34,590 nucleotides of DNA from a virus, in the IMG/VR virus record IMGVR_UViG_3300047377_000118, positions 1-34,590 of that record; one strand, written 5' to 3'. A model generated the notes under the pieces. It was not told the DNA's origin and did not search any database. It saw only the letters and a program-made list of their open reading frames with translations. The translations under genes and the position numbers were made by a program. How positions within the stretch are numbered: position 1 is the first letter of the stretch; each line of letters opens with the position of its first letter. Below are positions 1,966 to 34,507 of the stretch, one piece after another.

Positions 1966-2092
1966 ATTAGTAGTATCTTCTTATTTAAAGAAAACAAAAA
2001 CAAAAAGACCTGGTGTTCACGCAAAAACTAAAACATCAAGAAGTAAAAACAGTAAACATTATATAAAAAAATACAGAGGACAAGGTAGATGA
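1958..2092 (+). CDS. Small very basic phage protein (44 residues)
   Basis: ATG 1958 to TGA 2090-2092 encodes a Lys/Arg-rich peptide containing KRPGVHAKTK at 16-25 and ending YIKKYRGQGR. There are about 17 basic residues and no acidic ones, so nucleic-acid binding is plausible but not shown. Short proteins with the same layout (GVHAKTK...KKYRGQGR) are ones I recall near replication or nucleotide genes of marine phages. The stop overlaps the nrdB start (ATGA), tying its translation to ribonucleotide reductase. An alternative role as a translated leader peptide cannot be excluded. Confidence 0.68.
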   Translation: MARLVVSSYLKKTKTKRPGVHAKTKTSRSKNSKHYIKKYRGQGR

Positions 2093-3048
2093 GTTTATTT
2101 AAAGAAAGAATTGCATACAAACCATTTGAGTACCCTGAGTATTATACTGAGGGTTGGTTGAAACAAGCTCAAGCGTTTTGGTTACATACAGAAATACCTA
2201 TGTCGGGTGATGTAAAAGACTGGAACGAAAAACTAACTGATAAAGAGAAAAACCTAGTGGGAAATATCCTGCTGGGTTTTGCTCAGACTGAATGTGCTGT
2301 GTCTGACTATTGGACGCAAAAAGTTGTTGGTTGGTTTCCTAAGCATGAAATACAGCAAATGGCTATGATGTTTGGATCGCAAGAAACAATACACGCTGTA
2401 GCTTATAGTTACCTTAATGAAACTCTAGGGCTTGAAGACTTTGAAGCATTTTTACACGAGCCAGCAACAGCTGAACGATTTGAAAACTTAGTAGCATACG
2501 ATGGTAATGATCCTGTAGGTATTGGTAAGTCGCTAGCTATATTCAGTGCATTTGCAGAAGGCGTTTCGTTGTACTCTGCTTTTGCAGTGCTATACAGCTT
2601 TCAGCTTCGCAACCTACTAAAAGGTATTGGCCAGCAAATGAAATGGTCTGTAAGAGACGAAAGCTTACATTCACGTATGGGTTGTAAGTTATTTAATCAC
2701 ATGTGCGATGAAATACCTACTCTTAGAGATGAGTGCCAAGATGATATACATAAGGCAGCGGAAACAATGGTTGAGCTTGAAGAGAAATATATAGATAAAA
2801 TGTTTGAGATGGGTGATATAGAAAACCTAAAGTCTGAAGACTTAAAGCAGTTTGTTAGAAAAAGAGCTAACGAAAAACTACAAGAACTAGGTTACGATCC
2901 AACATTTACTTATTCGCAAGAAGCTGCAGACAACCTTGATTGGTTCTACCACTTAACAGGTGGTGTCACTCATACAGACTTTTTTGCTATGAGACCTACG
3001 GATTATTCTAAAGCTAATGAAGGTGAAGATTTTGAAGATATATGGTAA
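2089..3048 (+). CDS. nrdB: Class I ribonucleotide reductase, small (radical-generating) subunit
   Basis: The 319-residue R2 subunit houses the dimetal cofactor that starts the radical used by NrdA to reduce ribonucleotides. Aligning ligand spacing with E. coli R2 gives E68 (for D84), E99 (E115), H102 (H118), E157 (E204), E191 (E238) and H194 (H241); Y106 falls on the radical Tyr122. Helix spacings 31, 3, 34 and 3 match; only the E99-E157 interval is shorter. The first ligand is Glu instead of Asp while the tyrosine is kept, an unusual combination. The acidic, aromatic C-terminus (EDFEDIW) is the expected docking tail for the large subunit. It sits six bases before nrdA. Confidence 0.96.
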   Translation: MSLFKERIAYKPFEYPEYYTEGWLKQAQAFWLHTEIPMSGDVKDWNEKLTDKEKNLVGNILLGFAQTECAVSDYWTQKVVGWFPKHEIQQMAMMFGSQETIHAVAYSYLNETLGLEDFEAFLHEPATAERFENLVAYDGNDPVGIGKSLAIFSAFAEGVSLYSAFAVLYSFQLRNLLKGIGQQMKWSVRDESLHSRMGCKLFNHMCDEIPTLRDECQDDIHKAAETMVELEEKYIDKMFEMGDIENLKSEDLKQFVRKRANEKLQELGYDPTFTYSQEAADNLDWFYHLTGGVTHTDFFAMRPTDYSKANEGEDFEDIW

Positions 3049-3054
3049 TTAATT

Positions 3055-4752
3055 ATGTGGAATAAAGAATGGAAAAAAGGCGTTGATTACCCTGATTGGG
3101 GTGATAACGAAGTATATAAGAAAACAATAGGTGGCCAGTACTTGCTACCTGGTGAAAGCCCAGCTGATGCTTACATGAGAGTTTGTAAGACTGTTGGAAT
3201 GCGTTTAGGACGTCCAGAACTCACCGAAACATTTTATGAGTATATATGGAAGGGTTGGCTTTGTCTAGCGTCTCCAGTGTTGTCTAACACGGGCACAGAA
3301 CGTGGTCTACCGATCAGTTGTTTTGGCATTGATGTTGGCGACAGTATATATGATATAGGAAATAAAAATTTAGAGATGATGCTACTCGCGAAACACGGCG
3401 GCGGAGTTGGTATCGGAGTTAATATGATTAGACCTGCCGGAAGTAAAATAAAACAAAATGGAACATCAGACGGAGTTGTCCCTTTCTGCAAGATCTATGA
3501 TTCTACAATCCTTGCTACAAACCAAGGAGCAGTTCGAAGAGGAGCTGCTTCAGTCAACATTAACATTGACCACGCAGATTTTGAAGAGTGGCTTGAGATA
3601 CGAGAACCTAAAGGGGATGTTAACAGACAAAGCCTTAACTTACATCAATGCGCAGTTGTTGGTGACAAGTTTATGCGAAAGCTTGAACTCGGAGATCCAG
3701 AAGCTAGAACTAAGTGGAGTAAACTTATTAGAAAACGAAAAGCAACTGGCGAGCCGTATATCCTCTTTAAAGGAAATACAAACAAAGCAAATCCAGAAGC
3801 ATATAAAGAAAACGGATTAAAAGTTCATATGACTAATATATGTAGCGAGATTACGTTACATACAGATGAGTCACATAGCTTTGTGTGCTGCTTGTCTTCT
3901 TTAAACTTAGCTAAGTATAACGAATGGAAAGATACCAATATAGTATACGATGCTATATGGTTTCTAGACGGAGTACTTGAAGAGTTTATACAGAAAGCAA
4001 AAGGTAAGATCGGTTTTGAAAATGCAGTTAGATCTGCTGAGAAAGGTAGAGCATTAGGATTAGGCGTTTTAGGTTGGCATACTTATTTACAAGAAAACAA
4101 TATACCATTTGAAAGCCTGCCTGCACAGTTTGAAACTCGTAGAATATTCTCAACTATGATGGTTGAATCTACAAGAGCTAGTATGGATTTAGCTGAGCTT
4201 TATGGTGAACCACTTTGGTGTGCCGGTACTGGTTTGCGTAATACGCACCTACGTGCTGTAGCACCAACAGTCAGTAACTCTAAGTTATCAGGCAATGTAT
4301 CACCTGGTATTGAGCCTTGGGCTGCTAATGTATTTACAGAGCAGTCTGCCAAAGGTACTTTCATTAGAAAGAATCCAACATTAGAAAAGTTGTTACGTAA
4401 AAAAGGTAAGAATAATAAAGATGTTTGGAATAAGATACTAGAAGATGGAGGTTCTGTACAAGACTTAGATTTCTTAACAGACGAAGAAAAAGATGTTTAT
4501 AAAACATTTAAAGAGATAAACCAACTAGAACTAGTAAAACAAGCTGGAATAAGACAGCAGTTTATAGATCAAGGTGTTAGTTTGAATTTAGCTTTTCCAA
4601 AAGAAGCTACACCAAAATGGATTAATAAAGTCCATATGGAAGCTTGGAAACGTGGAATTAAAACATTATACTACATGCGCACTGAATCTGTGCTGCGTGG
4701 TGATATAGCTCAGAAAGCGCTAAGTGAAGACTGCATGGCTTGCGATGGCTAA
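3055..4752 (+). CDS. nrdA: Class I ribonucleotide reductase, large (catalytic) subunit, cone-less
   Basis: The 565-residue catalytic subunit converts NDPs to dNDPs. Active-site elements are all present: C89 in ISCFG, the N261-x-C263-x-E265 triad in TNICSEI, C278 as the partner of C89, the radical-relay pair Y539-Y540 in YYMRTES, and the C-terminal C560-x-x-C563 dithiol shuttle. The N-terminal ATP-cone that gives dATP feedback inhibition is absent (C89 corresponds to E. coli C225), as in many phage enzymes, and the C89-N261 interval is also shorter. It is the last gene of the plus-strand operon, directly followed by a terminator. The frame is continuous, with no sign of an intein or intron. 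Confidence 0.96.
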   Translation: MWNKEWKKGVDYPDWGDNEVYKKTIGGQYLLPGESPADAYMRVCKTVGMRLGRPELTETFYEYIWKGWLCLASPVLSNTGTERGLPISCFGIDVGDSIYDIGNKNLEMMLLAKHGGGVGIGVNMIRPAGSKIKQNGTSDGVVPFCKIYDSTILATNQGAVRRGAASVNINIDHADFEEWLEIREPKGDVNRQSLNLHQCAVVGDKFMRKLELGDPEARTKWSKLIRKRKATGEPYILFKGNTNKANPEAYKENGLKVHMTNICSEITLHTDESHSFVCCLSSLNLAKYNEWKDTNIVYDAIWFLDGVLEEFIQKAKGKIGFENAVRSAEKGRALGLGVLGWHTYLQENNIPFESLPAQFETRRIFSTMMVESTRASMDLAELYGEPLWCAGTGLRNTHLRAVAPTVSNSKLSGNVSPGIEPWAANVFTEQSAKGTFIRKNPTLEKLLRKKGKNNKDVWNKILEDGGSVQDLDFLTDEEKDVYKTFKEINQLELVKQAGIRQQFIDQGVSLNLAFPKEATPKWINKVHMEAWKRGIKTLYYMRTESVLRGDIAQKALSEDCMACDG

Positions 4753-5630: not shown

Positions 5631-6320
5631 TTAACTCTTCTTTCCACCCATTTTACCAGGTCCACCAGCTTTTGTACATCTCACACCCCACCCGGAGGCG
5701 TAAGCGCTTGGCCATACATCAAATTTCTTTTTAGCCGCCGTTTTACAAGCTGGACTTATAGCTTTTAAAGGAGACTTAGATTTTTTAATCCTTTTAATAT
5801 CTTTAATTGAGTCTGTTTTAGAAGTTCTAAGCCCTGTAGTGATTGCATCTACTTTCGTTGGACCAGTATATAAATCTTTACTTTCTCTAGGATAAGTTTT
5901 TGAGCCGTCGTAGTATTTTTTTGTAGGTCTCTTTCTAGGGCCAGCTGGTCTATCGTATTGAGGCTTAGGAGATAGCTTCGTTCCTCCATGTTTTTCTATA
6001 AAAGCGCTTCTGTTGTCAAAGGTGCTCATATATTTATCTAGCTTTGGCCACTTTTTAGAAGTAGACTTATACTCAGACTTAGGATATGCGTAAGGATCAC
6101 TTTTTCTTTCTTTAGCAAATTTTCTTCCTGCATAGCTGTCGCCATATGAGTCTTCCCTTTCTACTTGGTAAGCACGACCAACTACAGCAGAGTCTCTACG
6201 TGAAGGTATTTCTTCAAACTTTCCTTTCTTAGCGGTTTTCTTAGGTGGATCGATTTTTAACGGTGATGCTAGTCCATCTGTGTTGTAACCGCTTTCTTTT
6301 AATTTCTGATAAATGTTCAT
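5631..6320 (-). CDS. Basic hypothetical protein with FDVWPSAYASGW motif
   Basis: 229 residues, rich in Lys, Arg, Tyr, Ser and Pro and probably largely disordered. Two SPLK motifs occur at 19-22 and 183-186. The C-terminal domain (about 190-220) contains PACKTAAKKKFDVWPSAYAS and a second Cys in GVRCTK; Cys pairs around an FDVWPSAYASG core recur in uncharacterised proteins of phages and giant viruses as I remember them. No enzyme motif or membrane segment is visible. It lies seven bases after the Cys-rich gene in the lysis region. A DNA-binding or internal virion role is a guess from charge. Confidence 0.7.
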   Translation of the reverse strand: MNIYQKLKESGYNTDGLASPLKIDPPKKTAKKGKFEEIPSRRDSAVVGRAYQVEREDSYGDSYAGRKFAKERKSDPYAYPKSEYKSTSKKWPKLDKYMSTFDNRSAFIEKHGGTKLSPKPQYDRPAGPRKRPTKKYYDGSKTYPRESKDLYTGPTKVDAITTGLRTSKTDSIKDIKRIKKSKSPLKAISPACKTAAKKKFDVWPSAYASGWGVRCTKAGGPGKMGGKKS

Positions 6321-7337: not shown

Positions 7338-10300
7338 CTATCTTTTAGGTGTTTCTCTTTTAGGTGTATCTCTTTTTGCTTTCTTTCTTTTTGGCTTATC
7401 GCTTTTGTAAGGATCAACACCTACATCCCAAGTGTTCCAACCTAACGCCATAGCTGTTCTTTGCCAAGCTTGGTTTTCACTGTTTGCAGCTTCTCTAACA
7501 TTGTTCATTATTGTAAAAGCTCTATCTAAAGGGATATTTGTTGTAGCAGAGACAACGTTGCCACCAGCCAAGTAAGCTGGATTGTCTAATTTAAATCCTT
7601 TTTCTGACATTAAATCTCTATCAAACTTATAAGACTGAGTTGCAGAATATAATTTTCTAGCTTTACTTCCTATAGGTGGAGATAGATTTAAACCTTCTAG
7701 TAATACATATGTATAGTCTGGATTTGAATCTTTGCCAGACTCATACATAAATCTCATTATCATGTTTTTGATAGTTGCTACCGCAGCTCCATATATACCA
7801 GATCCTCTAAGTATAGTGTCTATAGAACTGTTTATAGCTCTTGACTTCTTTTTATCAAAATCTATTTCTTCTTCATCGTCAAACATTATGCCGAACAATG
7901 CATTTTGAAGCGTAGAGAATAATATATTTTGAGCCACACCATAGTAAATTATTTTAGAAACATTAGACTTCCAATCACCTCTGTTATTTTTTAAATCTAA
8001 AAACGATTTTTTGATTAATCGAGTATATTGCATTGGTGTATTTTGGAAAGCCAATATCAACCTACCTAATGGTCCAGCTTGCTGCATACTTACCATGGCG
8101 GGATTAGAAGATTGTTGAGATTTTTCTGAAGTTTCTGCAAAGTCTTTAAATGCTTTCGCTTCTGCTTCTTTAATACTAAAACCTTGTTTAATATAGGTGT
8201 TTATTCTATTTCTATAAAAAGCAGCACCACCTGCAGCTATAGCAAAGCTATCAGCAGCTTGCGTAGGAGCAAAACCTTTAGATAATACATAGTTTAATAT
8301 AGCTTTAGGTTTATCAGTCGACGAGTCCATGGCTTTTGCTATCTCTGCTGAGTTGACATCGGTCTGAAGACCTCTTCTTCTCTGCTTCAACATATCTGAA
8401 TTAAAAATAAATGCAAAATCTTTAGAATACTGCTTAGTATTTAATATAGCTTTTCCAAATTTAAAAGGATTGTTATCGTTCCAGTTTATGAAGTTAAACA
8501 AAGATATTGTTTGTAAAGCGGCAGATCTAAAGTTTAAGAACATTATAGAACCAACTGAATTATTAACCCAATTCATGAAACTGTTTACTATTTTATTGTT
8601 ACCGGTTGTTCTATTTGTGCCGTTCTCCATTCTGAACAATATGTCTTCAAGAGCTTCTCTAAAATTACCTCCGTATACTGCCTCTATTTTATTTAAATTA
8701 TCTTTACTAAATATCTCATTTTTATTTTCTATAAACTTACTTAGATATTCTTTTCTACCAACATTGTTAGTTATATCATTTATATCTGAAGCTATAGATC
8801 CAACAACCCAACTTTCGGAAGGAGTTGGAAAATTACTACCAGTAACTCTATTTAATATCTCAGCATACCCTTTTAAATTAGCATCTTTTTCTACTATATT
8901 AGAAAGCCTAGATTGATCGGTTTTAGATATGCCAGGTATCTTGTATCCTAGTTTGTCCCAAAGATAAACCCTAATAGCTGCATCAAAAGAAAAATTATTA
9001 TAATCAGTCTTTTTAGAAAGCATTTTAGACACATCTTTATAATGCTTGTTTAATTCTCTATAATTATTCGCATATACTTGTTTAGCGGAATTTATTTCTC
9101 CTATAGCTGTAAAAAATGGTCTTATTAAATTATCTTGGAAGAACTTAAGTTGCTTTTCTCCTTGCTTTCCTTTTCCTAAAAAGCTATAAATTAAACCTTC
9201 AAAATCTTCTGCAGATGGAGGTAAAAAGAATTTAAACTTATCTTGTGATCTACCTCTAGACTTAGCAGCGGCATCAGAAAATACTTTTTCAGCACCAACA
9301 CTTTTTGTTTGATCTATTATCTGATTAAACTCTGCGCTTAAGCTAGTTTGAACTATAGCTTGCTGAACTTTGCTGTTTATGTCAAAAGTTTCTAAAACAT
9401 TTTTAACCGCTTGAACATTTTTAATAGCATCATCAACAAAATAAAAGTCGTTATACCCTTCAGCAACCTTATCAACCATCCAGTCAGCCTTAGCTTTAGC
9501 TGTACTATTAGCCAACCCTGTAATATTGGCTCGTGGAATATCTATACCCAAACCTTTCATGAACGCGTGTATAGCACTTTCCGAAGCGACTGGTCTAGCA
9601 GTTAGAATAAATATATTTTTGTTACCAAATTTGTCTATTGCTTTTTGTATTCTTGGGATTAGAGGTCCGGGCTGACCTTTTACCACTTTGTTAAATTCAC
9701 TAAAATCAAACTCAGCTCCTTCGGCTAATAGTGTTTCACCTTGCTTAGCAAACTGCGCTGCATTTATTTTAAATGTTTTACCATCTTTTTTAACTATGAT
9801 TTGGCTTTTACTAAAAGCTAGTGTGTCATCAAAGTCATAAACACTTATACCTTTTTTAGGTTTATTTTTTAACCTAGCTGTTCTTATGGCTTTAGCCATT
9901 AAAGCATTTTCTTCAGTCTCTGCTATAGAAAGCTGTAGTTGTTCAGAAGTACTAACACCCTGAGAGTTTATATTAAATTCTTGTAAGAAAGTTTTATTTG
10001 TTGGCAACCATAGTAAATCTTCTGTGTTTATACCTCCTTGTTCAAACACAGCGTCATTGAAGTACCTTTCCCACCAATCGTTATCAAAAATATTCCACTT
10101 TCCATCTAAAGACATTTCGTTTTTTAAACCAGCTTTATCTAGCTTTAAATTATCTTTATAACTAAGACCTATTAATTTATAATTTTTCTCTAAAGCATTG
10201 AAAGTTTTAGAAAAGTCTTGCTTAGGATCCATTATTGATCTTATTAACGTTCTGTACGCAGCAACATTTTGAAGCGCGTGCTCTAAGTAAACTTTACCAG

Positions 10301-13300
10301 TATTTTTAGTATCATAACTAACAAACTGGGCACCACCTCTATGTGGGTGTGATTTAGAGTTCACTGAATTTTTTAAGAACACTAATACTGGCCCAAGAGT
10401 TGTAGGATCTTCAGTTAATAAATCGTTTATGCTTTCCCAAAAAGCTTTAAAGTTTACACCTGCTTGCCTATTATATTCTTTTATTTTAGACTTATTTTTG
10501 TTTATATCTTTTGTTGTTTTGCCTACGTAACTAGCAAAATCTCTTTTAGGGTATTTACCTCTAACAAAATCTAAGTCTTTTAATTTTGCTCTCAAGTATG
10601 CTCTTAAAGAAGAATCTTTTATTTTTAAACCATTAACAAACTCACCAGCACTTAGTAGACCTGGATGCTTTGCAAAAGCAGGTATTATTTTGTTAGCTAT
10701 ATAATTTACGTAGTTGTCTACTGCTTCTGGACTATCAGGCAGTATATACGAATTACCTTGACCAAATTCATCTGCTATAGATTTATCCATAACGCTGAGT
10801 TGAACATCTGAAGTTCCAGCTCTTACGTCCTGTATTATATTTTCTGATATATTTGCTTGTTTTAATTTTTCTCTTACAGCTGTATTAGATATTATCTTGT
10901 CTATAAGAGCTATTAAAGACTTTTGTCTTTGAGCTTCTTTGGATCTTCCTGACAATCCTTTTATAGGAGCTCCTTCGTCATCTATACCTAAAGCTTGAAG
11001 CATATCAGAGTTAGTCAACTTGTTTAACGTGTGTGGATATATGCCAGCACCTTTAGTTACTCTGTTTTGCTTAGTGTAGAAAACATCTAGTAAAGACTTA
11101 GGTATACCTGTCGATGTACCTATTAAAGCTTCTGTTGCAGCTTCTAATACAGCTCCTTTTGGTAGTAATTTTTTAATATCATTTATTCTGTCAAATATAG
11201 CTTTTGAAGTATTTATTAAATCTTTTTTACCTAGATTAGCTGCTGGGTTTTTAACTTTGTTAACTGGTATACCAAACTCTTCAGCTGTTATTTCTGTAGC
11301 TTGGCCTTTAAGCTTTTTGAAGCTTATGTTTTCTAAAGTTAAATTATCTATATTTATAGCATCGTTATACGCCTGCTTAGCTCCCGGAGTTTTAAGCATG
11401 TCTCTAGGATCTAGCTTTTTAGGTTGTGGCTTTCTAGTTGTTTCTACATCTGGCTCTGCTTGTAATTGTTGAGCGACTTCAGGATCATCTATTCTAGTCA
11501 TAAATTGACTTTCTTCACCCTTACCTAAAATTCTATCTGCTATTTCTATATATTTTTTAAAACCTTTTTTAGTAGAGAAGCTGTTGTTTAAGTAGCCAGA
11601 AAGTTCACCCATTTGTCTACCTTCTTTAACTTTTTTATCGTAATCTATCATTACTTCTAGCATACCTCTTTTACCCGTAAGTATTTCATCAACTAAAATA
11701 TCTTTCAATTGATCGTAGTTAGGTCTTTTGCTGTATCTCTTAGCTAAAGCTTCTGCGGTAGGTTTTAATTCTTCTAGTATATCAAAAGATGCTGCTAATC
11801 CTTGCTCTTCATAAGCTTTATTTACTTCTAATGATTTTTCAGGTGATAGAGAAAGCTGAACAAGATTAGAGTCTTCTGGATCAATTTCACCTATAGCAGA
11901 AATAGCTCTCTCTGTCAAAGCTCCTTTTTCTATGCTTTTATTATATTCACGCATAAAATTATATACGCTCTTACCATCTTCAAAACCTATTTTAGCAAAA
12001 CCAAGTGGCTTTAATATGTTTACTATTATATTACCGATTTTTTGATATATACTATCGTTAAGTTTTATTTTACCAGTTCTTACAGAATCAGAGAATACAG
12101 TTAGATACTCAGTTGCTATGTCTGTTCTACCGTATCTTTTCATCAACTCTAAATCCATTTGTTTTATTTGGCGAGTTGTTAGTTGGTTTTTAAATTGATC
12201 TACTAGTTTTGCTTGATCTGCTACGCTACCTATTCTAGTGTTTAGTATAGGATGTAAAACTTCGTGAGCACCAACATTTATGTTTCCAGTTTTAGCAGCA
12301 ACTTCTTTATTTATGTATATTGTCCCATTGTATACGAAACCGCCTATTTGATTTATTTTTGATTGCTGCTCTTTATTTAATGAAATATTATCTTTAATAA
12401 TTGATTTTGTAAAATCTTTTGTAGTATCAAACGATTTAGTTTTTAATCCTACTTTTCCGCCTTCTTCTTTAGCAAATCTTTCTGTAGCTGATATATTTCT
12501 TTGCTCTATAGCTCTATTTATTTTTTCTTGTCTAGCTTTTATTCTTTTGGCCTCGCTACTTAATCTTCCTTTTGTAGAGTATTTATCAGATATTTCTTTT
12601 ATCTCAGCATCTATAGCAGCTAATTGACTTTTAGCAAATTGAGTTTTTCCTTTTTCAAATCTTTTTCTTTGTTTCTCTAAGTTGAATACTTGCTGTCTAT
12701 CATTTTTATCTGTTATTCTAGCATTTATTTCATTTTTTAACGCTACATCATCCCTTTTACTCAACATGTAATCAGAAAAGCCTTTGTCGTTCTGTACTTC
12801 TATCTCCATGCCAGCTAATTGCTCTTCTGTGGCAGAGTTAACTACGTCTTTCATTTGAGCTGAGCTTACTTCTTTTCCATTTATCTTATATTTGCCTTGC
12901 GTCAAAATACTAGTAGAGCTAGCAGCTATCTGAGCAGGTGCACCGCCAAGTCCAGCAAATGCTTCTGTTATTATATCTAATTCTGTAACGTCTTCACCCG
13001 TTATTTTACCTGCTACAAATTCTCCAAGACCACCACCGCCTGCCTCAATAGAACCGCCTACAAGTCCAGTTGATACACCAACTGCAGTTTTTGCTAAAAT
13101 TCTATTTGTATTTTTAAAAGCAGTGTTTACAGCCTTTGCTGTCTTACTAACCGCTGTGCCTCCTAGCGCAGAAAATGTACCCTCTATAATACCTATTGAC
13201 GTTCCTGCTGCTAAAGATCTATTTCTTAAACTTCTATAGAAATCTTGATCAGACAAAAGCTCTCTTACAGAAGATGAGTTAAAGTCTTTGTTTCTTTTAA

Positions 13301-14093
13301 CTAACTCTTTTTTTATACCATCTTGAAACCTAATCATTGTCTCTGACAAAGCGTTAGACCCAGCCATATATGCTCCAAGTGTAATTGCTGCGCCTCCTAT
13401 ACCAGTGTACCAAGATGCAGCACCTGCAGGTACAGCTAGAGAAGCACCTGCTTTTTGGGCGTCTTCGCTACCAAAATAAGGAGCAGTGCCTCTTACACTT
13501 TGAGTTGCCACTCCTGCGAAACCATCTACGCCTTCTTCATTTATAGCCATCAACATAGACATCGCAACATTATTGCCTTTGTCTCTATATTTTTGAAAAG
13601 ACTTCATCCAATTGTTTAGCTCTTCAATATTTCCTGTAGCATCTGATTTTATTACCGCATTTACAAACTCGTCGTATTCTTTTTCGTCTAATCCACCACC
13701 ACCCATAAATAGCTCTGTTGTCTCGTCTACAGCATCAGATCTATACTTACCACTAGTCCAACCTTGTGCAATACTTTGAAAATACCCTTCTACTTTTTTT
13801 CCATTATATTCTTGTATTTCTGGATCTATGTATCTACCAGATTGATTGTAGTCTTTAAAATATTCTACAGGTTGATCAAAAAACTTATTGCTAAAAGCAT
13901 CCACGTCACCTGTGTACAAGCCTTGTTGAACTAAGCCTTCGTGCAATAGCTTTCTATTGTCTTCATTGCTAAACTTATTTACAAAGTCTTGAAAATTAGA
14001 AGTATACAGCCCATTTTGATACAAGCCTCTATATAAAGCACCTAGATTGTGCTCTTTATTAGGATTTTTATTGTTATCTGGATTATCTGTCAT
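7338..14093 (-). CDS. Giant virion-associated polyvalent protein with HExxH and HAD-phosphatase motifs
   Basis: 2251 residues, several times the size of neighbouring genes. In order: two copies of a 22-residue motif at 20-41 and 50-71; Gly/Ala-rich hydrophobic stretches near 215-245 and 338-360; a Lys/Glu/Arg coiled coil near 460-560; H610-E-V-L-H614, a HExxH zinc-peptidase motif; and a complete HAD set with D1420-F-D1422-D-T, T1498 in ILTARP and D1554-D1555 in YFVDDA. A long helical C-terminal half contains AFQNTPMQYTR near 2016 and a hydrophobic segment near 2045-2070, then a basic tail of TPKR repeats. It occupies the position of T7 gp15/gp16 internal ejection proteins. I recall the C-terminal half as widespread in marine phages. 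Likely packed in the capsid and injected; activities in the host are inferred from motifs. Confidence 0.85.
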   Translation of the reverse strand: MTDNPDNNKNPNKEHNLGALYRGLYQNGLYTSNFQDFVNKFSNEDNRKLLHEGLVQQGLYTGDVDAFSNKFFDQPVEYFKDYNQSGRYIDPEIQEYNGKKVEGYFQSIAQGWTSGKYRSDAVDETTELFMGGGGLDEKEYDEFVNAVIKSDATGNIEELNNWMKSFQKYRDKGNNVAMSMLMAINEEGVDGFAGVATQSVRGTAPYFGSEDAQKAGASLAVPAGAASWYTGIGGAAITLGAYMAGSNALSETMIRFQDGIKKELVKRNKDFNSSSVRELLSDQDFYRSLRNRSLAAGTSIGIIEGTFSALGGTAVSKTAKAVNTAFKNTNRILAKTAVGVSTGLVGGSIEAGGGGLGEFVAGKITGEDVTELDIITEAFAGLGGAPAQIAASSTSILTQGKYKINGKEVSSAQMKDVVNSATEEQLAGMEIEVQNDKGFSDYMLSKRDDVALKNEINARITDKNDRQQVFNLEKQRKRFEKGKTQFAKSQLAAIDAEIKEISDKYSTKGRLSSEAKRIKARQEKINRAIEQRNISATERFAKEEGGKVGLKTKSFDTTKDFTKSIIKDNISLNKEQQSKINQIGGFVYNGTIYINKEVAAKTGNINVGAHEVLHPILNTRIGSVADQAKLVDQFKNQLTTRQIKQMDLELMKRYGRTDIATEYLTVFSDSVRTGKIKLNDSIYQKIGNIIVNILKPLGFAKIGFEDGKSVYNFMREYNKSIEKGALTERAISAIGEIDPEDSNLVQLSLSPEKSLEVNKAYEEQGLAASFDILEELKPTAEALAKRYSKRPNYDQLKDILVDEILTGKRGMLEVMIDYDKKVKEGRQMGELSGYLNNSFSTKKGFKKYIEIADRILGKGEESQFMTRIDDPEVAQQLQAEPDVETTRKPQPKKLDPRDMLKTPGAKQAYNDAINIDNLTLENISFKKLKGQATEITAEEFGIPVNKVKNPAANLGKKDLINTSKAIFDRINDIKKLLPKGAVLEAATEALIGTSTGIPKSLLDVFYTKQNRVTKGAGIYPHTLNKLTNSDMLQALGIDDEGAPIKGLSGRSKEAQRQKSLIALIDKIISNTAVREKLKQANISENIIQDVRAGTSDVQLSVMDKSIADEFGQGNSYILPDSPEAVDNYVNYIANKIIPAFAKHPGLLSAGEFVNGLKIKDSSLRAYLRAKLKDLDFVRGKYPKRDFASYVGKTTKDINKNKSKIKEYNRQAGVNFKAFWESINDLLTEDPTTLGPVLVFLKNSVNSKSHPHRGGAQFVSYDTKNTGKVYLEHALQNVAAYRTLIRSIMDPKQDFSKTFNALEKNYKLIGLSYKDNLKLDKAGLKNEMSLDGKWNIFDNDWWERYFNDAVFEQGGINTEDLLWLPTNKTFLQEFNINSQGVSTSEQLQLSIAETEENALMAKAIRTARLKNKPKKGISVYDFDDTLAFSKSQIIVKKDGKTFKINAAQFAKQGETLLAEGAEFDFSEFNKVVKGQPGPLIPRIQKAIDKFGNKNIFILTARPVASESAIHAFMKGLGIDIPRANITGLANSTAKAKADWMVDKVAEGYNDFYFVDDAIKNVQAVKNVLETFDINSKVQQAIVQTSLSAEFNQIIDQTKSVGAEKVFSDAAAKSRGRSQDKFKFFLPPSAEDFEGLIYSFLGKGKQGEKQLKFFQDNLIRPFFTAIGEINSAKQVYANNYRELNKHYKDVSKMLSKKTDYNNFSFDAAIRVYLWDKLGYKIPGISKTDQSRLSNIVEKDANLKGYAEILNRVTGSNFPTPSESWVVGSIASDINDITNNVGRKEYLSKFIENKNEIFSKDNLNKIEAVYGGNFREALEDILFRMENGTNRTTGNNKIVNSFMNWVNNSVGSIMFLNFRSAALQTISLFNFINWNDNNPFKFGKAILNTKQYSKDFAFIFNSDMLKQRRRGLQTDVNSAEIAKAMDSSTDKPKAILNYVLSKGFAPTQAADSFAIAAGGAAFYRNRINTYIKQGFSIKEAEAKAFKDFAETSEKSQQSSNPAMVSMQQAGPLGRLILAFQNTPMQYTRLIKKSFLDLKNNRGDWKSNVSKIIYYGVAQNILFSTLQNALFGIMFDDEEEIDFDKKKSRAINSSIDTILRGSGIYGAAVATIKNMIMRFMYESGKDSNPDYTYVLLEGLNLSPPIGSKARKLYSATQSYKFDRDLMSEKGFKLDNPAYLAGGNVVSATTNIPLDRAFTIMNNVREAANSENQAWQRTAMALGWNTWDVGVDPYKSDKPKRKKAKRDTPKRETPKR
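7341..7370 (-). repeat. 15-bp tandem duplication in the giant gene's last codons
   Basis: Two copies of a 15-base unit (TCTTTTAGGTGTTTC on the plus strand, one mismatch between copies), followed by a partial third. They encode the repeated [D/E]-T-P-K-R residues of the basic C-terminus. Confidence 0.9.
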
Positions 14094-14108: not shown

Positions 14109-15602
14109 CTATAATTTAAAAGCAGATGTAGAAAAACCGTACTTAACACCTTCCGCTTTCTCTTGCATGCCGTTAGACTCTCTTTCGTTTTCTATAATAG
14201 GTGAGTCTTGTCCTCCAAACTCACCACCATCATCAAACATAGCTGGTTGACCAGTAGACTGCGCTGCATTTGGTGCAGGACTAGCAGATTGATCTGCAGG
14301 TTGATCTGCAGGTTGACTTTGGTTTTCGCTAGGTTGTTTATAAAACAAAGGCCAATACGCTTGATGTATATTTGCAGCTTTAAAAAGTTTATCCAAAAAT
14401 TGCTGGCTACTTGGATCTAAGGTTGCTTTCCATGTAGTGCCTGACCAAACATCAAATTTCGTAGGATCTTCTTTATTCGGCCGTAAATCGTAACCGCTAG
14501 GCATGTATGTATCTAATAAAGACAAATCTTGAGTAGTTAATTCTTGCCCTACTTTTAATCCACTTTGATTTATAGCAGCAGTTAAGTTTTGCATGTTAGC
14601 TAAAGCTTTTCTAGCGGCTTCTGTAAGCCTAGTGCCACCCGCAGCTCCTCCTCTACCTTTAGCTTGAGCAATTTTAGTTTGCTTAACCTTATACCCAGTT
14701 CTAGAAGTTTCAACTAGTACGTCCATATAGTTGTCTACAACTAAATCTCTCAAGCTTTCAAAACTTAAATTACCGTCATAGTAGTCTTGAACATTTTTAG
14801 ATATATAAGGATCTTCTATAAGCTTTGTGTCACCTACTAGTCCGTCATGCAATAGCGACATTAGTGTATTTCTACCTCCTTTGTCCACAGCTATTCTAAG
14901 TTTATTTCTAGTGTCATTATACATTATTCCACCTTTTTTCAAAATCTGTCCTGATTTATAAACAGAGGTAGCCGCGTTTGTTAAAGCTGTTGCTGTATTG
15001 TAATCTTTTAACTCATAACCAGGAAGATCATTTAAAGCAACTGAACCATCTTCACCCATAAAAGAAACATTGCCGAAATCATCAATGTTTATAGAGTATT
15101 CTTCATTATATATACCTCTTAAAAGATTTACATTTGCTTGATTTTCCATAGAAAGAGACGTAGATTGATTTTCTATATCATCTATTATTTTAGCTTTACT
15201 TTCGCCATATATCTTCATCTGGTTAGCTAGATTTTTAAAAGATCCACTTATATTATTCATCTGATCTTTCATGTGCATATACATTTCGCTGCCAACTACA
15301 TGATCGTCTATTTGGTTTGCTAAAATTACGTACTCTTGCTTCTTGTTAGTTAAGAAACTTTGTATTTGACTTCTATATTCGTCAGGAGTTGCTGCAAGAT
15401 CAACGCTATCCGGCAAGTTATTTAAGTAAGATTTTAGTTTATTCTCGTAATTATTTTTTACCGCACCAATCACATTAGATGTTGGCATAGTTCCGCCTCT
15501 TGTGGCTGATAAATACCCTTTGTGAAATGCTGCTCCAACGTCGATAAAGTTACCGTACTGTCCTTGGTTTTGCGCGTTTTGTATTATCTGTCTATCCGTC
15601 AT
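14109..15602 (-). CDS. Probable internal virion/ejection protein, 497 residues
   Basis: Mostly helical and charged through residue 340, with coiled-coil-like stretches at about 55-165; a Gly-Arg-rich patch (AKGRGGAAGG) near 310-320; then a C-terminal domain followed by a disordered Q/P/A/D-rich tail from about 425 (PADQPADQ repeat). There is no enzymatic motif. It lies between the gp14-like protein and the giant polyvalent protein, matching the place of T7 internal core protein gp15 in a 14-15-16 order, which is why I call it an ejection protein. No sequence family is recognised with certainty. Confidence 0.72.
   Translation of the reverse strand: MTDRQIIQNAQNQGQYGNFIDVGAAFHKGYLSATRGGTMPTSNVIGAVKNNYENKLKSYLNNLPDSVDLAATPDEYRSQIQSFLTNKKQEYVILANQIDDHVVGSEMYMHMKDQMNNISGSFKNLANQMKIYGESKAKIIDDIENQSTSLSMENQANVNLLRGIYNEEYSINIDDFGNVSFMGEDGSVALNDLPGYELKDYNTATALTNAATSVYKSGQILKKGGIMYNDTRNKLRIAVDKGGRNTLMSLLHDGLVGDTKLIEDPYISKNVQDYYDGNLSFESLRDLVVDNYMDVLVETSRTGYKVKQTKIAQAKGRGGAAGGTRLTEAARKALANMQNLTAAINQSGLKVGQELTTQDLSLLDTYMPSGYDLRPNKEDPTKFDVWSGTTWKATLDPSSQQFLDKLFKAANIHQAYWPLFYKQPSENQSQPADQPADQSASPAPNAAQSTGQPAMFDDGGEFGGQDSPIIENERESNGMQEKAEGVKYGFSTSAFKL
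14291..14314 (-). repeat. 12-bp tandem duplication (two units)
   Basis: GATCTGCAGGTT is present twice in a row, encoding the QPAD repeat in the disordered tail of the 497-residue protein. A third partial unit precedes it. This is typical slippage-type repeat in a linker. Confidence 0.9.
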
Positions 15603-15611
15603 ATCTTTAAA

Positions 15612-16319
15612 TTAAGGTTGTTCTATTCCTCCAAAAGTGCCTGGATTGACACCTTCTATAGCGGCGTCGTAACCAGCGTGCTGCGCACCTATATTACTAA
15701 CACCACCAGCTAGTTGGCCTACGCCTCCAATAATTGCTTGCTTAGCTTGCTCTCTAGCAGCCTTGGCTGCACCTAGTCTTCCTTGAGCCATACCCAGCAA
15801 TGTATTAGTTTTTTGTTGCTGCATTCTTCTAGATATAAGTTCTCCTTCTCTTTCTTGCGCCTGCAACTGGCTAGCCATGCCTCTTTCAGCCATTTGATTA
15901 GACCTTTCTTGCTGCCCTATGTCTACAGCTGATCTTTGTGCGTTTACTGCTTGTTGACCTGCCATTGCTTGGGCTAGTGCGGCTATACCGCTACCACCAG
16001 CAGCTCCAGAAAACTGATCCATTAAGTTAGCTTGGCCTTGCGCTTGCTGTTGCGCTGCAAAATCTGCAGCTTGCGTATTAACTGTTAGATCTTCATACAC
16101 GTTTTCCATATCTGCATATGGATTTGAAGTATCGCGAGCTTCTAGCTGAGCTTTGTATTGATTAAACTCCTGTTGAGCAGCTCTCTCTTCTTGTTTTCTA
16201 GCTTTACTACCTATTATGCCACTAGCAATACTCATAGTTCCTCCTAAAATATTGCCTGCTTGGCCAAATATTATACCTTTGTCTAATTCTAAATCTTTTT
16301 TAAATGGTGAATTTTTCAT
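15612..16319 (-). CDS. gp14-like internal virion protein, Ala/Gln-rich
   Basis: 235 residues. It begins MKNSPFKK, then has a Gly/Ala/Ile segment at 18-38 (hydrophobic, amphipathic), an Ala/Gln/Arg-rich helical middle with DLTVNTQAADF near 73-83 and GAAGGSGIAALAQ near 104-116, long Q/E/R coiled-coil regions, and a Gly-rich hydrophobic segment near 195-215. This composition and location match the small ejection protein of T7-like phages (gp14), which forms the outer-membrane part of the ejectosome, and I recall similar proteins in marine podoviruses. Its N-terminal SPFKK resembles the SPLKK motif in three late basic proteins. Confidence 0.75.
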   Translation of the reverse strand: MKNSPFKKDLELDKGIIFGQAGNILGGTMSIASGIIGSKARKQEERAAQQEFNQYKAQLEARDTSNPYADMENVYEDLTVNTQAADFAAQQQAQGQANLMDQFSGAAGGSGIAALAQAMAGQQAVNAQRSAVDIGQQERSNQMAERGMASQLQAQEREGELISRRMQQQKTNTLLGMAQGRLGAAKAAREQAKQAIIGGVGQLAGGVSNIGAQHAGYDAAIEGVNPGTFGGIEQP

Positions 16320-19204: not shown

Positions 19205-22200
19205 TTATTGTACTATTATTTCTATTTGGTTACCAGCAGATCCTGTTATTGCGCTTATATACCCTAAACCTTGTACTGAATACTCTTTCGTATCTAGATT
19301 TAAGTCAGTAGTTTCAGTTCCTAGTATATTATAAAACCACTTGCCTTCTTTGTTTTTAAATGTTTTAACTTGCCCGCTTTGTAAGTCAGACTCTATTGAA
19401 CTAACCCACCAACCGCTTTTAGCTAGTCTATTGTAAAACTTGTTGTCTGTGTCTGGGTTACCACTTGCGTCTGGATTATCTAAAAACACCCTAGCCTGAG
19501 TACCTTCATAGTTTAGTGTTTTAAAGGATTTTACAGATCCAGGTGCATCGTTAAATATAAATTTAACAGACGAGTTATATTGAACGCCATAGAAGTTATT
19601 TCTAGTCTCATTATTATGCGACCATATTTCACCATTTTTAAACGTGTAGTATATGTTGTTTAATGATAAGCCGTTTTCTTTTATAAAGCTTTTTCTTGTA
19701 TTCCAACCATTAACATCTTCTTTAAACGAAGTAGTTTCGTTGTAATCACTAGAATCTGTTTGTTTAGTTATAGTTAAGTTGTACTCGTCTTTGTTTTCAT
19801 CATAACTACCAATTACTCTTTGAGCAGTAGCTAGCTTATCTCTAAAGTAGTCATCCATACCGTAGTTAGATATTGGTGTTAAACCATTACCGGACAACCT
19901 AAGTATTACACCTCTATTTTTATCTGAGAAATAAGCTCTGTTTCCGTATCTAGCATATGACTCTGGATTTTTACTTATACCGTAATCACCCGCGTAAGGT
20001 TGTATTGAACCAAGAACATTTGTGCTTGATACTACATTTTTACTACCATCTGCATTAAACAAAGCGTCTCTATCTGCTAGCACCTTGACTACATTGTCTT
20101 CTAAGTAAACATCTAGATCACCTAACCTAAACTCCATTAGCTGTATTGCTCCGTATGAAGGGTTTATAGCTTTTGTTATTTGCTCCGCTTGTATGAATTG
20201 GTTTAGATTATTTACGCCAGATGTTGAGTTATAAATACCAGAATATATAATATCTGATTTTTTATTTACTTCTTTATATTGATCTTCTAAAACCGTAGAC
20301 GCTCTAACACCTTTACCTATAATAGGTGCATTAAAATCATCTCTAATTCTATCTGATTCAACACCGTTACCAAAAGTAAAACAATTTGAATACGACAACG
20401 TATTTAGCACGCCATGGCCAGTTTTACCTCTAGCGCTACCTGCTTCGTAATATATGTCTAACTCTGCAACTTCTTTAGGCTCTGTCTCCCATATAGCTGG
20501 ATTACTAGATGTAAAAGTATCTTCTGAATAGAAATCTTTTAAAAACTCCATGTTTGTAGAGCTTCCTTTAGAGGTATGGCCGTTTTCAGCGGGTGACCAC
20601 GCTATAGGCTTGTCTAGTTTCAGCGTCCATTTAACTATTCTGCCTGTAGCGGTTTTGCCTCTATTTTTTTTAAGCTTTGCGTCGTCATAAGCTAATATGT
20701 TTGTCCTACTCCAATTAGTTATAGTGTATATATTTTCGTCTTTTTTAGGATCATCTGTAAATCTAAATTTCATGCCTATAGTCTCTAGCACGTTTTTCAT
20801 AGACGCTTGAGCTCTAGTTTCTTCTGTTCCAAATTGATTCCATACTCCCCATCTCGCACCCTCATCGAAACCACCAAAATAATGAAATGCTATTTCTATC
20901 ACATCCCACCCAGTATTAACACCAAATCCAGGTGCTTTCCACATGTCAGATGGTCTGTCCGCTCTACCACCTCTCCATATTTTTCCATTTTCTTTCATAG
21001 GTCCACCTCCCCATTGAGCGTCGTGGTACAAGTTGTAACAGAAAAACCAACCTGCGCTTAATACTGCTTTATTTTTATCAGGAGGATTTATTCCAGGGTA
21101 ATTACCTTTATCTGTCTTTGCCCAAAAATTTCCATCGTTGTTTTTTCTAGGCATACCATATATAGGCTGAGAATTTACAACTTTGTATTCTTCGTCGTTT
21201 TGCTTTATAAGTATAGCGTTTTCTAGAGTAGAATCTCTTTGTATTTTAACAAAAAATCTTCCTTGAAACTCTGGTTTTCTTTTTATTGTTTTTTGAAAAA
21301 TCTGTATAGATAGATCAGTAGCATTCGCATCAAACAAACCTACAAAAGCAACGTCTTGCGACTCTAGTTTCTTTTCAAAATTTACTCTGTAAGCCGCAGG
21401 CTGCAACTCAGGCTTATACTGTATGTTAGCTATTTCGTAATGTTTAGTCTCGTTTCTGCCATCGGACAACACTAAAGTTAAATCATTTAGCTGATGCACT
21501 GGTACAGCTGTAGCTCTTTCATCTCCTGAACCTCCATATATAGTTTGCCAGTCTGCAGCTTTTATATCTATGTATCCACCATCTTCAGTTGGCCAACCGC
21601 CACTACTAGCAAATATAGATCCATTACCGCTGCCGCTAGCGTTTTGTCTATTAAGCTTGCCTTTAGACACATTTTCTTCTTTTATAAAGTCAGGTGCTTC
21701 GTTTTCTATTGCTAGTATTTTATATTTAGCTTCTTCTTCAACAAAATCATCTTTGTCGTGTTTCTTTTTTAGGATAATAAATGTATCTTCTTGTACCTTA
21801 TTTCTTTCAGACGATGGAAATGACAACCACACGTTACCATCTTCAGCAGGATAATGCCTATCCATAGCTAGATTATAATAAGGTTGTGAAGTTTCTTTTA
21901 TATAATACTTGTACGTTTCTGCCCAGTGAGGTATAGGGCTTTTTATTCTAGCTGTTAGAAAGTTTCTATTAGGTGCAAAACCTTTATTTAGCTTTATTGA
22001 TCCACTAGTATCTGTCAATACAGGCGTTTCTCTTCCGTACTTGTCTCTATACACAACTCCTATCTGGTATGTTCTTTGAGATTTTAAAGATTTTCTAGGC
22101 TGTCCAACTGTAGATGAGTTGCTTCTAGCGTCTAAAGCGAATTTAATAGAGATATCATTTACATCATTGATATTCTCCTTTATATTGTAGTTTTCTATGT

Positions 22201-23626
22201 AGTTACCGAATAATAATCTGTTACCTGAAACCGCTAAAGCTTTAGCTTTTTTAGGTACATTATCGAAAGGTCTAAGTATTTGATTAGAAGGTATTACTTT
22301 ATATATTAGCTCTGAATCTATTTCAAGTCTTCCTTCGTAAAAATCTGGATATGCTGATGACTCAGAATACTCGGGATCAGTAGCTTTAACACTTTTTACT
22401 ACATATATATTATTACTGACAGAATCTTTGTAAAGTATATCAACTTCAGTAACACCAAAAGGAACTTCGTAAGCCCAGTTAACTATTTCTAGCTTTCTAA
22501 GCTGATTAACCATACCTAAGTTATATCCTTTTTTAGGATCGTAATCAAAATCGTCGCCTACGAAAGCTACTTCGCTAAATGGAGATATAGTAGAGTATTC
22601 GCCATCTTTATATTTATATCTATAAGCAAATCTAACAAATTTAGTTTCAAACAAAGCTGGTTTTTGTATTAACTCTACTTTCCAGTTCTGCACATTTTCT
22701 TCTATGTTTTCACTTATAGAATCTATATTTATTTTGAATATTTTTGGATAAGCTTCATAAGTTTCTACTATAGAAGCTATTATCGCAGAGTCTTCGTCTG
22801 CTTCGTTTTCATCGGCTGTCAAAAGTGTTATCTTTACTTTATCGCCTTCTCTAAAATCAGGTGTAGTTCCAGATATTATTATTTCACTATCGACTGGATT
22901 AGGTAGCGGACGATTTAGAGCAGAGTCAGCAGTTCCATCACCATTTTGATCTGTATATTCTCCTGTAGGCATTGGTTCCCAGCTGTCCGTGTCAGTGTCT
23001 AGATATGTAAAAGATTTATTATAAAGAGTACCAGATATAGCGCCATCTCTAGTCGTGTTAGCCATTTTTAATCTAGGTGCGCTTAATGGACCTTTTTTTA
23101 TAACAGTACAATGCTCTTCTTTAAAGTCTGCTCCATTTACTTGTGTGTGAGTCCAAGTGTTATTAGTATATGTTTTCCAATCAGTAATTTTTATTCTCTT
23201 AGGCTCTGTATTATTATCTGTCCATATTAAAAAATCATCTAATATCTCTATTCCAGTTATTAAATTATTTCTACTAAAATTAAGTATTCTGTTAGTATCT
23301 ACAAGTACTGGCTCTATACTATTAGTCTCTTGATTATATTCTACAATTAAACTTTTAGTTTGACTTTCAACAAACCAGTATATACATTCAGTTTCATCCC
23401 TTCTTATAGCGCCAACACAAAAAGCATTACCACCTAAATTAGATGCAATACTATTACCGTAAGGTAATTTATTACCTAGTATATTTTGCAACGATCCAAC
23501 ATCAGATCCTTCTGAAGTTGAAACTTGAACGTTTAGTGCGTCTCTATATTGACCATTAGGAACTAATCTTTCGTCGAGGTCTTTATTCATTTTACCTCCA
23601 CTGAATGTTCTTTTTAACTCTGGCAT
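19205..23626 (-). CDS. Tail nozzle/tubular protein B-like, 1473 residues
   Basis: The N-terminus carries a set of motifs I recall from marine podoviral tail proteins: GGKMNKDLDERLVPNGQYRD (11-30), an SEGSDVGSLQNILGNK stretch (38-53), and an IYWFV...IVEYN strand pair near 82-97, as in the distal tail tube (T7 gp12-like) that closes and opens the DNA channel. The rest is long, mixed beta, Trp/Tyr/Asp-rich, with a Gly/Trp-rich insertion around 880-930 and a C-terminal SGQVKTFKN...KWFYNILGT block near 1420. At 1473 residues it is almost twice T7 gp12 (794), so extra appendage domains are likely. Assignment rests on motif memory and gene order. Confidence 0.75.
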   Translation of the reverse strand: MPELKRTFSGGKMNKDLDERLVPNGQYRDALNVQVSTSEGSDVGSLQNILGNKLPYGNSIASNLGGNAFCVGAIRRDETECIYWFVESQTKSLIVEYNQETNSIEPVLVDTNRILNFSRNNLITGIEILDDFLIWTDNNTEPKRIKITDWKTYTNNTWTHTQVNGADFKEEHCTVIKKGPLSAPRLKMANTTRDGAISGTLYNKSFTYLDTDTDSWEPMPTGEYTDQNGDGTADSALNRPLPNPVDSEIIISGTTPDFREGDKVKITLLTADENEADEDSAIIASIVETYEAYPKIFKINIDSISENIEENVQNWKVELIQKPALFETKFVRFAYRYKYKDGEYSTISPFSEVAFVGDDFDYDPKKGYNLGMVNQLRKLEIVNWAYEVPFGVTEVDILYKDSVSNNIYVVKSVKATDPEYSESSAYPDFYEGRLEIDSELIYKVIPSNQILRPFDNVPKKAKALAVSGNRLLFGNYIENYNIKENINDVNDISIKFALDARSNSSTVGQPRKSLKSQRTYQIGVVYRDKYGRETPVLTDTSGSIKLNKGFAPNRNFLTARIKSPIPHWAETYKYYIKETSQPYYNLAMDRHYPAEDGNVWLSFPSSERNKVQEDTFIILKKKHDKDDFVEEEAKYKILAIENEAPDFIKEENVSKGKLNRQNASGSGNGSIFASSGGWPTEDGGYIDIKAADWQTIYGGSGDERATAVPVHQLNDLTLVLSDGRNETKHYEIANIQYKPELQPAAYRVNFEKKLESQDVAFVGLFDANATDLSIQIFQKTIKRKPEFQGRFFVKIQRDSTLENAILIKQNDEEYKVVNSQPIYGMPRKNNDGNFWAKTDKGNYPGINPPDKNKAVLSAGWFFCYNLYHDAQWGGGPMKENGKIWRGGRADRPSDMWKAPGFGVNTGWDVIEIAFHYFGGFDEGARWGVWNQFGTEETRAQASMKNVLETIGMKFRFTDDPKKDENIYTITNWSRTNILAYDDAKLKKNRGKTATGRIVKWTLKLDKPIAWSPAENGHTSKGSSTNMEFLKDFYSEDTFTSSNPAIWETEPKEVAELDIYYEAGSARGKTGHGVLNTLSYSNCFTFGNGVESDRIRDDFNAPIIGKGVRASTVLEDQYKEVNKKSDIIYSGIYNSTSGVNNLNQFIQAEQITKAINPSYGAIQLMEFRLGDLDVYLEDNVVKVLADRDALFNADGSKNVVSSTNVLGSIQPYAGDYGISKNPESYARYGNRAYFSDKNRGVILRLSGNGLTPISNYGMDDYFRDKLATAQRVIGSYDENKDEYNLTITKQTDSSDYNETTSFKEDVNGWNTRKSFIKENGLSLNNIYYTFKNGEIWSHNNETRNNFYGVQYNSSVKFIFNDAPGSVKSFKTLNYEGTQARVFLDNPDASGNPDTDNKFYNRLAKSGWWVSSIESDLQSGQVKTFKNKEGKWFYNILGTETTDLNLDTKEYSVQGLGYISAITGSAGNQIEIIVQ

Positions 23627-33682: not shown

Positions 33683-33957
33683 TACTTACTCCTCCTTTCA
33701 GCAAAGCCGCTAAACGCGACAGATTTATCTTCTACAGGTTTGTTTTCTAAAACAGCTTTTTCGTTTTCAATACGATTTAATATTTCAAAGGCATCGAATA
33801 TAGCTAGTTTTTTTGTAGCAGCAGCGTTCTTAAGTCTATCGGCAGAAACATCATCTTCAGTATTTGTAATGATCTTTTCTTGTGCTACTTTAATTAGCTC
33901 TTCGACTGCTTTATACCCAGCTTGGATTATACTCTCTTTCTTCTCCTTCGTGTTCAT
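33682..33957 (-). CDS. Putative small terminase subunit
   Basis: 91 residues, helical and charged, with a core KLAIFDAFEILNRIENEKAV (50-69) and a basic C-terminus AERRSK. Immediately precedes TerL with a TAATG overlap, the normal place for the DNA-recognising TerS, and is of a size compatible with a short TerS (T7 gp18 is 89 residues). No classical helix-turn-helix is obvious. Its 5' end overlaps the upstream gene by 47 bases in another frame; no later ATG is available to shorten it. Assignment is positional. Confidence 0.65.
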   Translation of the reverse strand: MNTKEKKESIIQAGYKAVEELIKVAQEKIITNTEDDVSADRLKNAAATKKLAIFDAFEILNRIENEKAVLENKPVEDKSVAFSGFAERRSK

Positions 33958-34507
33958 ATTTAATTGTAATTACTTTTGTTCTTACTCTATAAACACGCTC
34001 GCCATCTATAATAAACTCAAACTCACTATTAGGTATAAACCCTACCTTATCTCCTACTTTTATACCTACGCTTTCTAAAATATCATTAGAGTATTTAACT
34101 ATACCAACTAATGGTTTTTCTTTTTCTAAAGAAAACATATCATCGTTAGCTATAGGTTTTACAAAGCAATAGTCATCTAGTGATTTCCATTCTTCGTTAT
34201 GTTTATATATGTATAACTGATCGTCACCGACAAAGTATTTGTCTTCAGTAAAAAAGCTTCTACTGTTCTGTTCTTTGCCTCTAACATCATGCCATCTTCT
34301 AAATACATTATGGTGTATGATAACTTCATCACCAACTTGTATATCAGTTTTTTTATTCTTTGGCAAACCAACAACTATAGCGTTATTGCTTACGTTCTTA
34401 TGAGTAAATATCTCAGTGTTTAATATTAGTTCTTTATCGCCAACTTTCTTAGTGTTGTCGTATCTTGATCTAATAGGTGACACTATAAAACTATCCCAAC
34501 CGTGCAT
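33911..34507 (-). CDS. GroES-like (co-chaperonin-like) phage protein, tentative
   Basis: 198 residues, beta-rich. Two halves each contain a GroES-style strand: IVVGLPKNKKTDIQVGDEVI (43-62) and VGIKVGDKVGFIPNSEFEF, and each half has a VGDxV turn typical of the GroES barrel. The protein ends GEEREYNPSWV. Phage-encoded co-chaperonins (T4 gp31) help fold the capsid protein and are found near head genes; this gene precedes the terminase. I recall uncharacterised marine-phage proteins of this type. The GroES link is weak and needs structural comparison; otherwise it is a hypothetical late protein. Confidence 0.5.
   Translation of the reverse strand: MHGWDSFIVSPIRSRYDNTKKVGDKELILNTEIFTHKNVSNNAIVVGLPKNKKTDIQVGDEVIIHHNVFRRWHDVRGKEQNSRSFFTEDKYFVGDDQLYIYKHNEEWKSLDDYCFVKPIANDDMFSLEKEKPLVGIVKYSNDILESVGIKVGDKVGFIPNSEFEFIIDGERVYRVRTKVITIKYEHEGEEREYNPSWV

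Follow-up and report, generated by a model that had tools for sequence, protein, structure and literature searches.

The window analysed here, the whole of a 34.6 kb record from an uncultured virus, encodes on its minus strand a protein of 2251 residues, P0001, which is the last of a three-gene block (235, 497 and 2251 residues) behind a crAss-type muzzle gene (Table 1). Downstream of the muzzle gene the products run in the order 825, 123, 235, 497 and 2251 residues. The window terminase is 63% identical to that of Manatee Spring podovirus ctfjg026, 45% to those of Flavobacterium elemo phages, and approximately 40% and 37% to those of Cellulophaga phages phi13:2 and phi38:1. Giant proteins of 1691–3859 residues occupy the equivalent site in Cellulophaga, Flavobacterium, Maribacter and Manatee Spring phages, several of them annotated 'structural'. 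The block ends with the giant, often annotated structural, in the cultured or deposited relatives L001–L005; in phi46:3 (L007) the giant is split into products of 1439 and 626 residues, and in Gundel_1 a 2482-residue annotated structural protein lies immediately upstream of the terminase. Similarity among these giants is patchy, with residues 553–720 of ctfjg026 matching window residues 191–390, and residues 2184–2339 of Gundel_1 matching window residues 1967–2113. Elsewhere in the window, ribonucleotide reductase small and large subunit genes were recognised by eye on the plus strand at 2089–4752, convergent with the late genes, and the protein encoded at 33911–34507, adjoining the terminase, aligns with the phage co-chaperonin GroES of relatives at 28–43% identity.

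Table 1. Positions in the window of P0001, its domains and motifs, and the neighbouring genes
Feature	Positions	Strand	Basis
P0001, 2251-aa giant ejection-type protein	7338..14093	-	Syntenic with giant 'structural' proteins of cultured relatives
Basic C-terminal tail, net charge +8 in last 20 residues	7341..7400	-	Charge count
Conserved helical C-terminal core, residues ~1581–2227	7413..9353	-	Kept also in relatives without HAD
HAD phosphatase domain, residues ~1414–1580	9354..9854	-	Motifs, Pfam, conservation; block of 90% DNA identity in otherwise replaced cassette
HAD motif IV, VDDA 1553–1556	9426..9437	-	Motif conservation
HAD motif III, K1535	9489..9491	-	63/63
HAD motif II, LTAR 1497–1500	9594..9605	-	Motif conservation
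HAD insertion point, residues ~1433–1441; nested P-loop kinase of ~200 aa in 26/77 relatives, absent from window	9771..9797	-	Relatives' alignment
HAD motif I, DFDDT 1420–1424	9822..9836	-	Motif conservation
Zincin-like domain, residues ~540–700	11994..12476	-	AlphaFold model, structure matches, alignment
E662, candidate third zinc ligand	12108..12110	-	61/62; invariant in 56 rows of another alignment
HExxH motif, HEVLH 610–614	12252..12266	-	74/77 relatives
Gly/Ala-rich stretch, residues 191–390, common to ctfjg026 (MW202828) giant	12924..13523	-	30% identity, E 2e-6
p497, second gene of putative ejection cassette	14109..15602	-	Synteny; replaced along with giant
p235, first gene of putative ejection cassette	15612..16319	-	Synteny
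crAss-type muzzle protein, 1473 aa, anchors tail module	19205..23626	-	Pfam crAss_MUZ_C E 1.7e-11; PHROG 14478 E 7e-157

P0001 is laid out as a variable N-terminal half, a zincin-like domain, an enzyme slot and a conserved helical C-terminal core. The open reading frame, the four motifs and such motif positions as the original prediction gave were confirmed exactly when the sequence was re-read on the minus strand. HExxH arose in 0.28% of shuffled versions of P0001 and DxDxT in 37%; DxDxT alone is thus common by chance, and the HAD assignment requires an ordered motif set together with conservation. P0001 had zero matches in PHROGs, no known polyvalent or LPD domain in Pfam and PHROG, and no RNA polymerase domain in Pfam. 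Membrane segments over threshold were found in some of the relatives' giants and not in P0001. The tripeptide [FY]S[KR] was approximately 1.8-fold enriched (180 against 98) in the window protein and giants L008–L084, and sometimes stands just before domain starts, for example as IKFSK ahead of the HAD, where it is a possible linker or cleavage signature. With an enrichment of just this size it was set aside as an interdomain processing motif.

Relatives were collected by scanning IMG/VR with the HAD region, which gave 77 loci of 42–88% identity with open reading frames of 1.8–4.1 thousand residues, some of them truncated where the contig stops. The search patterns covered HAD motifs III and IV only, so the search itself cannot account for the conservation of motifs I and II. 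A window-type terminase was present on 44 of the 45 contigs tested, indicating a single lineage, and at least 600 IMG/VR stretches match the lineage terminase. Residues 1400–2227 align in most relatives at approximately 42–60% identity; over the first 1400 residues most give no alignment, and the N-terminal halves of eight relatives matched no domain in Pfam. A second sample of 13 long contigs was obtained through the terminase, with no selection for HAD. A direct homolog scan with the whole of P0001 found none because its patterns lay mostly in variable parts. The giant in full length, and its HAD and C-terminal core separately, were compared by tblastn with the 50,697 deposited phage records of INPHARED and gave no match, so that the family has been invisible to model systems. 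Breaks in the HAD reading frame of two relatives (L019, L039) are most likely frameshift errors and were discounted as real truncations. On contig G003 one ligase-like gene is present twice, at 240–722 and 64003–64485, and this contig therefore probably runs beyond a full genome of approximately 63.8 kb.

The HAD motif set proposed for P0001 proved to be complete and ordered. In the alignment of relatives D1420, D1422, T1498, R1500, K1535 and D1555 were kept in 63 of 63 rows and D1554 in 62 of 63. Pfam DUF2608, a HAD-clan family, matched the window domain above cut-off (E 8e-6) and 46 of the 63 rows at E values up to 0.1, and a PDB profile search with the domain returned nothing. A structural model of the relative L058 comprising HAD, kinase and core (1069 residues, pLDDT 79, pTM 0.58) contained a HAD with Rossmannoid strand order, to which the window HAD is approximately 52% identical. 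Comparison of the window HAD with that of L008 gave a dN of 0.08 and a dS of 0.64, which shows purifying selection on the domain.

The HExxH motif was found in 74 of the 77 relatives, against approximately one expected by chance, and lies 892–1395 residues ahead of the HAD; the remaining three homologs are without it. The AlphaFold model of window residues 540–759 (pLDDT 80, pTM 0.76) consists, in model numbering, of strands at 12–16, 46–49 and 52–56, the HExxH helix at 68–82 and a glutamate-bearing helix at 121–134. Foldseek searches with this model gave nothing significant, with no E value below 0.5, and a PDB profile search with the region gave unrelated matches only. Using VIA, the best 33 matches listed were nearly all zincin-fold chains with Z scores of 3.0–4.8, led by Pro-Pro endopeptidases and with IrrE and collagenases among them. 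As zincin-fold chains dominate these best 33 matches, residues 540–700 appear zincin-like at the level of the fold, although the assignment is not strong, the scores being weak (Z < 5) and the alignment having been centred on HExxH. The polyvalent metallopeptidase core is described by Iyer et al. (2017, PMC5512222) as a three-stranded sheet, an HExxH helix and a glutamate in the next conserved helix, and both the model and E662 fit that description. The HAD fold, the zincin topology and the conserved motif residues on which the original prediction depended were accordingly all recovered, the first in the model of a relative.

The nested kinase of the relatives sits between HAD motif I and the remainder of the HAD. 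Pfam Zeta_toxin and AAA_33 matched 24 of the 24 aligned kinases and scored equally. The top Foldseek match of the L058 model was T4 polynucleotide kinase/phosphatase (Pnkp; E 1.3e-5), while VIA aligned the model with the Pnkp kinase of C. thermocellum at a Z score of 16.6 and an rmsd of 2.9 Å over 164 residues, and its residues 39–376 with T4 Pnkp at a Z score of 15.2 and an rmsd of 22.9. This large displacement across both domains indicates that the domains match individually and differ in their placement. The DxxR motif of T4 Pnkp (D35–R38) is missing from the nested kinase, in which the invariant D71 aligns with D35, and L74 aligns with R38, a residue with a functional role in T4 Pnkp. Uncharacterised viral homologs are present in UniProt, A0A218MMX7 being 70% identical to L058, and one viral homolog bears the name UDP-N-acetylglucosamine kinase. 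Kinases of the marine myoviruses Melnitz and HTVC008M and a protein of the Agrobacterium jumbo phage Atu_ph07 (L098, L099, L100) belong to the same kinase family and contain N.D...E in place of the PNK DxxR; the kinases of HTVC008M and Melnitz stand alone, without a HAD.

On a tree of the C-terminal region kinase presence changes five times, at least four of these on well-supported branches. In the terminase-based sample a HAD was present in 10 of the 13 contigs (one with kinase) and absent from three. L186 and L187 carry the kinase directly ahead of the core with no HAD and L188 carries neither domain, but all three keep HExxH and a core that aligns at 41–51% from approximately window residue 1581. 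The zincin and the core are thus the constant parts, and what lies between them varies: a HAD, a HAD with nested kinase, a kinase by itself, or neither domain. These slot states point to pre-loaded, exchangeable enzymes for the start of infection. Six relatives (L066, L021, L022, L042, L073, L076) have other inserts, of approximately 20–200 residues, between HAD motifs I and II, and the HAD site at or near the kinase position is an insertion hot spot. A second insert of approximately 450 residues lies right behind the HAD in L070 (approximately 2804–3277), L071, L072 and L078; it contains the sequence NPWC...W.HYSDGPKS.VF..GKL..F.ANGQYWDRMD, and the L070 copy has no Pfam match. A search of 25 contigs, which are fragmentary and in which the PF09511 control matched nowhere, recognised no RNA ligase; PF09414 matches, considered as a tRNA-repair RNA ligase, look like T7-type DNA ligase.

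In a relative's model the C-terminal 640 residues form helices, in agreement with the helical virion-type region expected at the outset. The matches of the L058 model in BFVD included many ART-PolyVal and large polyvalent (LPD) proteins, with E values from 1e-14 to 1e-6. The charge of the C-terminal tail has a mean of +4.8 in 65 relatives. Four relatives (L049, L056, L063, L069) end in a Cys/His-rich sequence, YRCTATK.NG.RCKNKTENKNK.CYAHQ, instead of the plain basic tail, which looks like a small zinc-binding motif.

Comparison of the window with the sister phage G001 revealed that the cassette has been replaced between near-identical phages, the HAD block excepted. The terminase, portal, capsid, muzzle, p825 and p123 are 97–100% identical at the protein level, and so, at 97%, is the amidase on the other side of the cassette. 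Identity falls to 75% in p235 and to 60% over part of p497; within the giant it is undetectable in the N-terminal half, 85% in the HAD and 50% in the C-terminal core. DNA identity drops at the stop codon of the giant (7338) and resumes inside p235 at approximately 15,900, and within this replaced cassette the block at 9347–9855 alone is 90% identical. Separately, window positions 5774–6255, within a Lys/Arg-rich open reading frame at 5631–6320, have no match in G001, while their flanks are 91–99% identical. In P22-like phages gp7, gp20 and gp16 are highly mosaic and interdependent, gp16 and gp20 must match, and changes in these two overcome the SieA entry block (PMC10883804). Those phages share with the window lineage a mosaic divergence among near-identical phages that rises from the first to the third gene.

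The layout of the cassette resembles gp7-gp20-gp16 of P22 and gp14-gp15-gp16 of T7, likewise three consecutive genes, small, medium and large, after the tail genes (PMC10883804, PMC8954989); p235 and p497, at 235 and 497 residues, compare with P22 proteins of 229 and 471 residues, and the P0001 tail recalls the basic C-terminal end of T7 gp16 (PMC8954989). The likeness seen is one of layout, and unlike the third protein of P22 or T7, P0001 has 2251 residues, a HAD and a zincin, and no membrane segment over threshold. The N4 virion RNA polymerase gp50 (PMC12633501) is also a giant ejected protein, as P0001 is presumed to be, and likewise combines an HExxH domain with an extensive helical part at the C-terminus; however, Pfam detected no polymerase in P0001, and its slot holds HAD or kinase. 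The muzzle-bearing phage crAss001 (PMC10172136) also encodes large cargo proteins after the muzzle gene, but its giants are RNA-polymerase-associated and none of those domains was seen in P0001. A P-loop kinase and a HAD phosphatase share one polypeptide in T4 PseT as in 26 of the 77 relatives, though not in the window, and the pattern DxDxT, [ST]xR, DD is common to both; in PseT the kinase is N-terminal, whereas in the relatives it is nested in the HAD after motif I, lacks DxxR and is fused to the putative ejection protein.

Polyvalent proteins, as outlined in PMC5512222, are likewise giant and multi-domain, commonly combine zincins with other enzymes, are encoded among virion genes and are expected to be injected. 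P0001 has several enzyme domains, zincin and HAD (with kinase in relatives), and its gene adjoins the virion late genes. The words phosphatase and haloacid are absent from the main text of PMC5512222, and a HAD with nested kinase and slot exchange was not found in the parts of that paper relevant here; polyvalent ejection proteins with zincins are already known. The polyvalent character originally proposed for P0001 is consistent with its domain mix, its position in the tail and ejection block, synteny with 'structural' giants and, in a relative's model, C-terminal structural similarity to large polyvalent proteins; residence in the virion and, from synteny, injection would be expected to follow. 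That no membrane segment stood out in P0001 was counted against this reading. We consider it probable that P0001 is a polyvalent ejection protein with a zincin, a constant core and an exchangeable enzyme slot.

As the third and largest product of the cassette, P0001 would be stored in the virion with p235 and p497 and expelled before or with the DNA, as for P22, T7, N4 and crAss001. The basic helical core (1581–2251) would be the constant structural part for ejection, and the hypervariable N-terminal half would face changing host features. The zincin may process P0001 itself or cleave a protein of the host, options drawn from PMC5512222; the weak fold matches, the HExxH-centred alignment and the three homologs without HExxH were counted against this part. 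The slot enzyme would act early, in the host cytoplasm. Since relatives nest a polynucleotide-kinase-like domain in the same HAD, we infer that nucleic-acid ends are the target of the slot, which would supply a 3'-phosphatase, joined where present by a 5'-kinase, and might mend incoming DNA or tRNA that host nucleases have cut. In the window, where the HAD stands alone, the activity would be that of a 3'-phosphatase. Phosphorylated host nucleic-acid ends had been named as a possible target, and the relatives' kinase supports this indirectly, the window copy itself being without kinase. Also weighed against end healing were the missing DxxR, the equal standing of Zeta_toxin and AAA_33 in Pfam and the failure to recognise an RNA ligase. 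Nucleic-acid ends are our favoured guess for the substrate, and metabolites are the strongest competing class; taken by itself this assignment to end healing is tentative.

The HAD and kinase of the same polyvalent ejection protein could instead act on small molecules, such as nucleotides, nucleotide defence signals or, like zeta toxins, sugar nucleotides. The equal fit of Zeta_toxin and AAA_33, the missing DxxR, the stand-alone kinases of HTVC008M and Melnitz, the kinase-only giants L186 and L187 and the homolog named UDP-N-acetylglucosamine kinase are all compatible with such substrates, but the best structural matches are T4 Pnkp, aligned over both domains, and bacterial Pnkp kinases, and the fact that nesting within the HAD recurs suggests that both domains work on a common class of substrate, which makes small-molecule substrates rather unlikely. 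P0001 could also be mainly a structural DNA-ejection protein, a gp16-like conduit or motor in which HAD and zincin are accessory or serve self-maturation only. We regard this as unlikely, since the HAD catalytic residues are invariant and under purifying selection while the remainder is exchanged, even though the three-gene cassette, mosaic in its divergence and with gene sizes like those of P22, the basic C-terminus and the retention of the core where HAD and kinase are lost all accord with it. A lone motif such as DxDxT often turns up by chance, but the ordered invariant catalytic sets, the co-conserved HExxH and glutamate and the structural models make it highly improbable that P0001 is non-enzymatic and its motifs coincidental.

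Ejection proteins are usually seen as conduits for DNA, and this one lineage offers a natural series in which the slot is filled by a HAD, a HAD with kinase or a kinase, or is empty. It is conceivable, though on balance doubtful, that a very common lineage of uncultured marine phages injects an end-repair enzyme that is preloaded in the virion within an exchangeable slot, and that phages alike in nearly everything else swap the whole cassette according to the nucleases or entry blocks of their hosts. Because near-identical phages differ mainly in the cassette, the host feature that drives the change is directly testable, and the lineage likewise makes testable whether end-healing enzymes can reach the host ahead of all phage gene expression.
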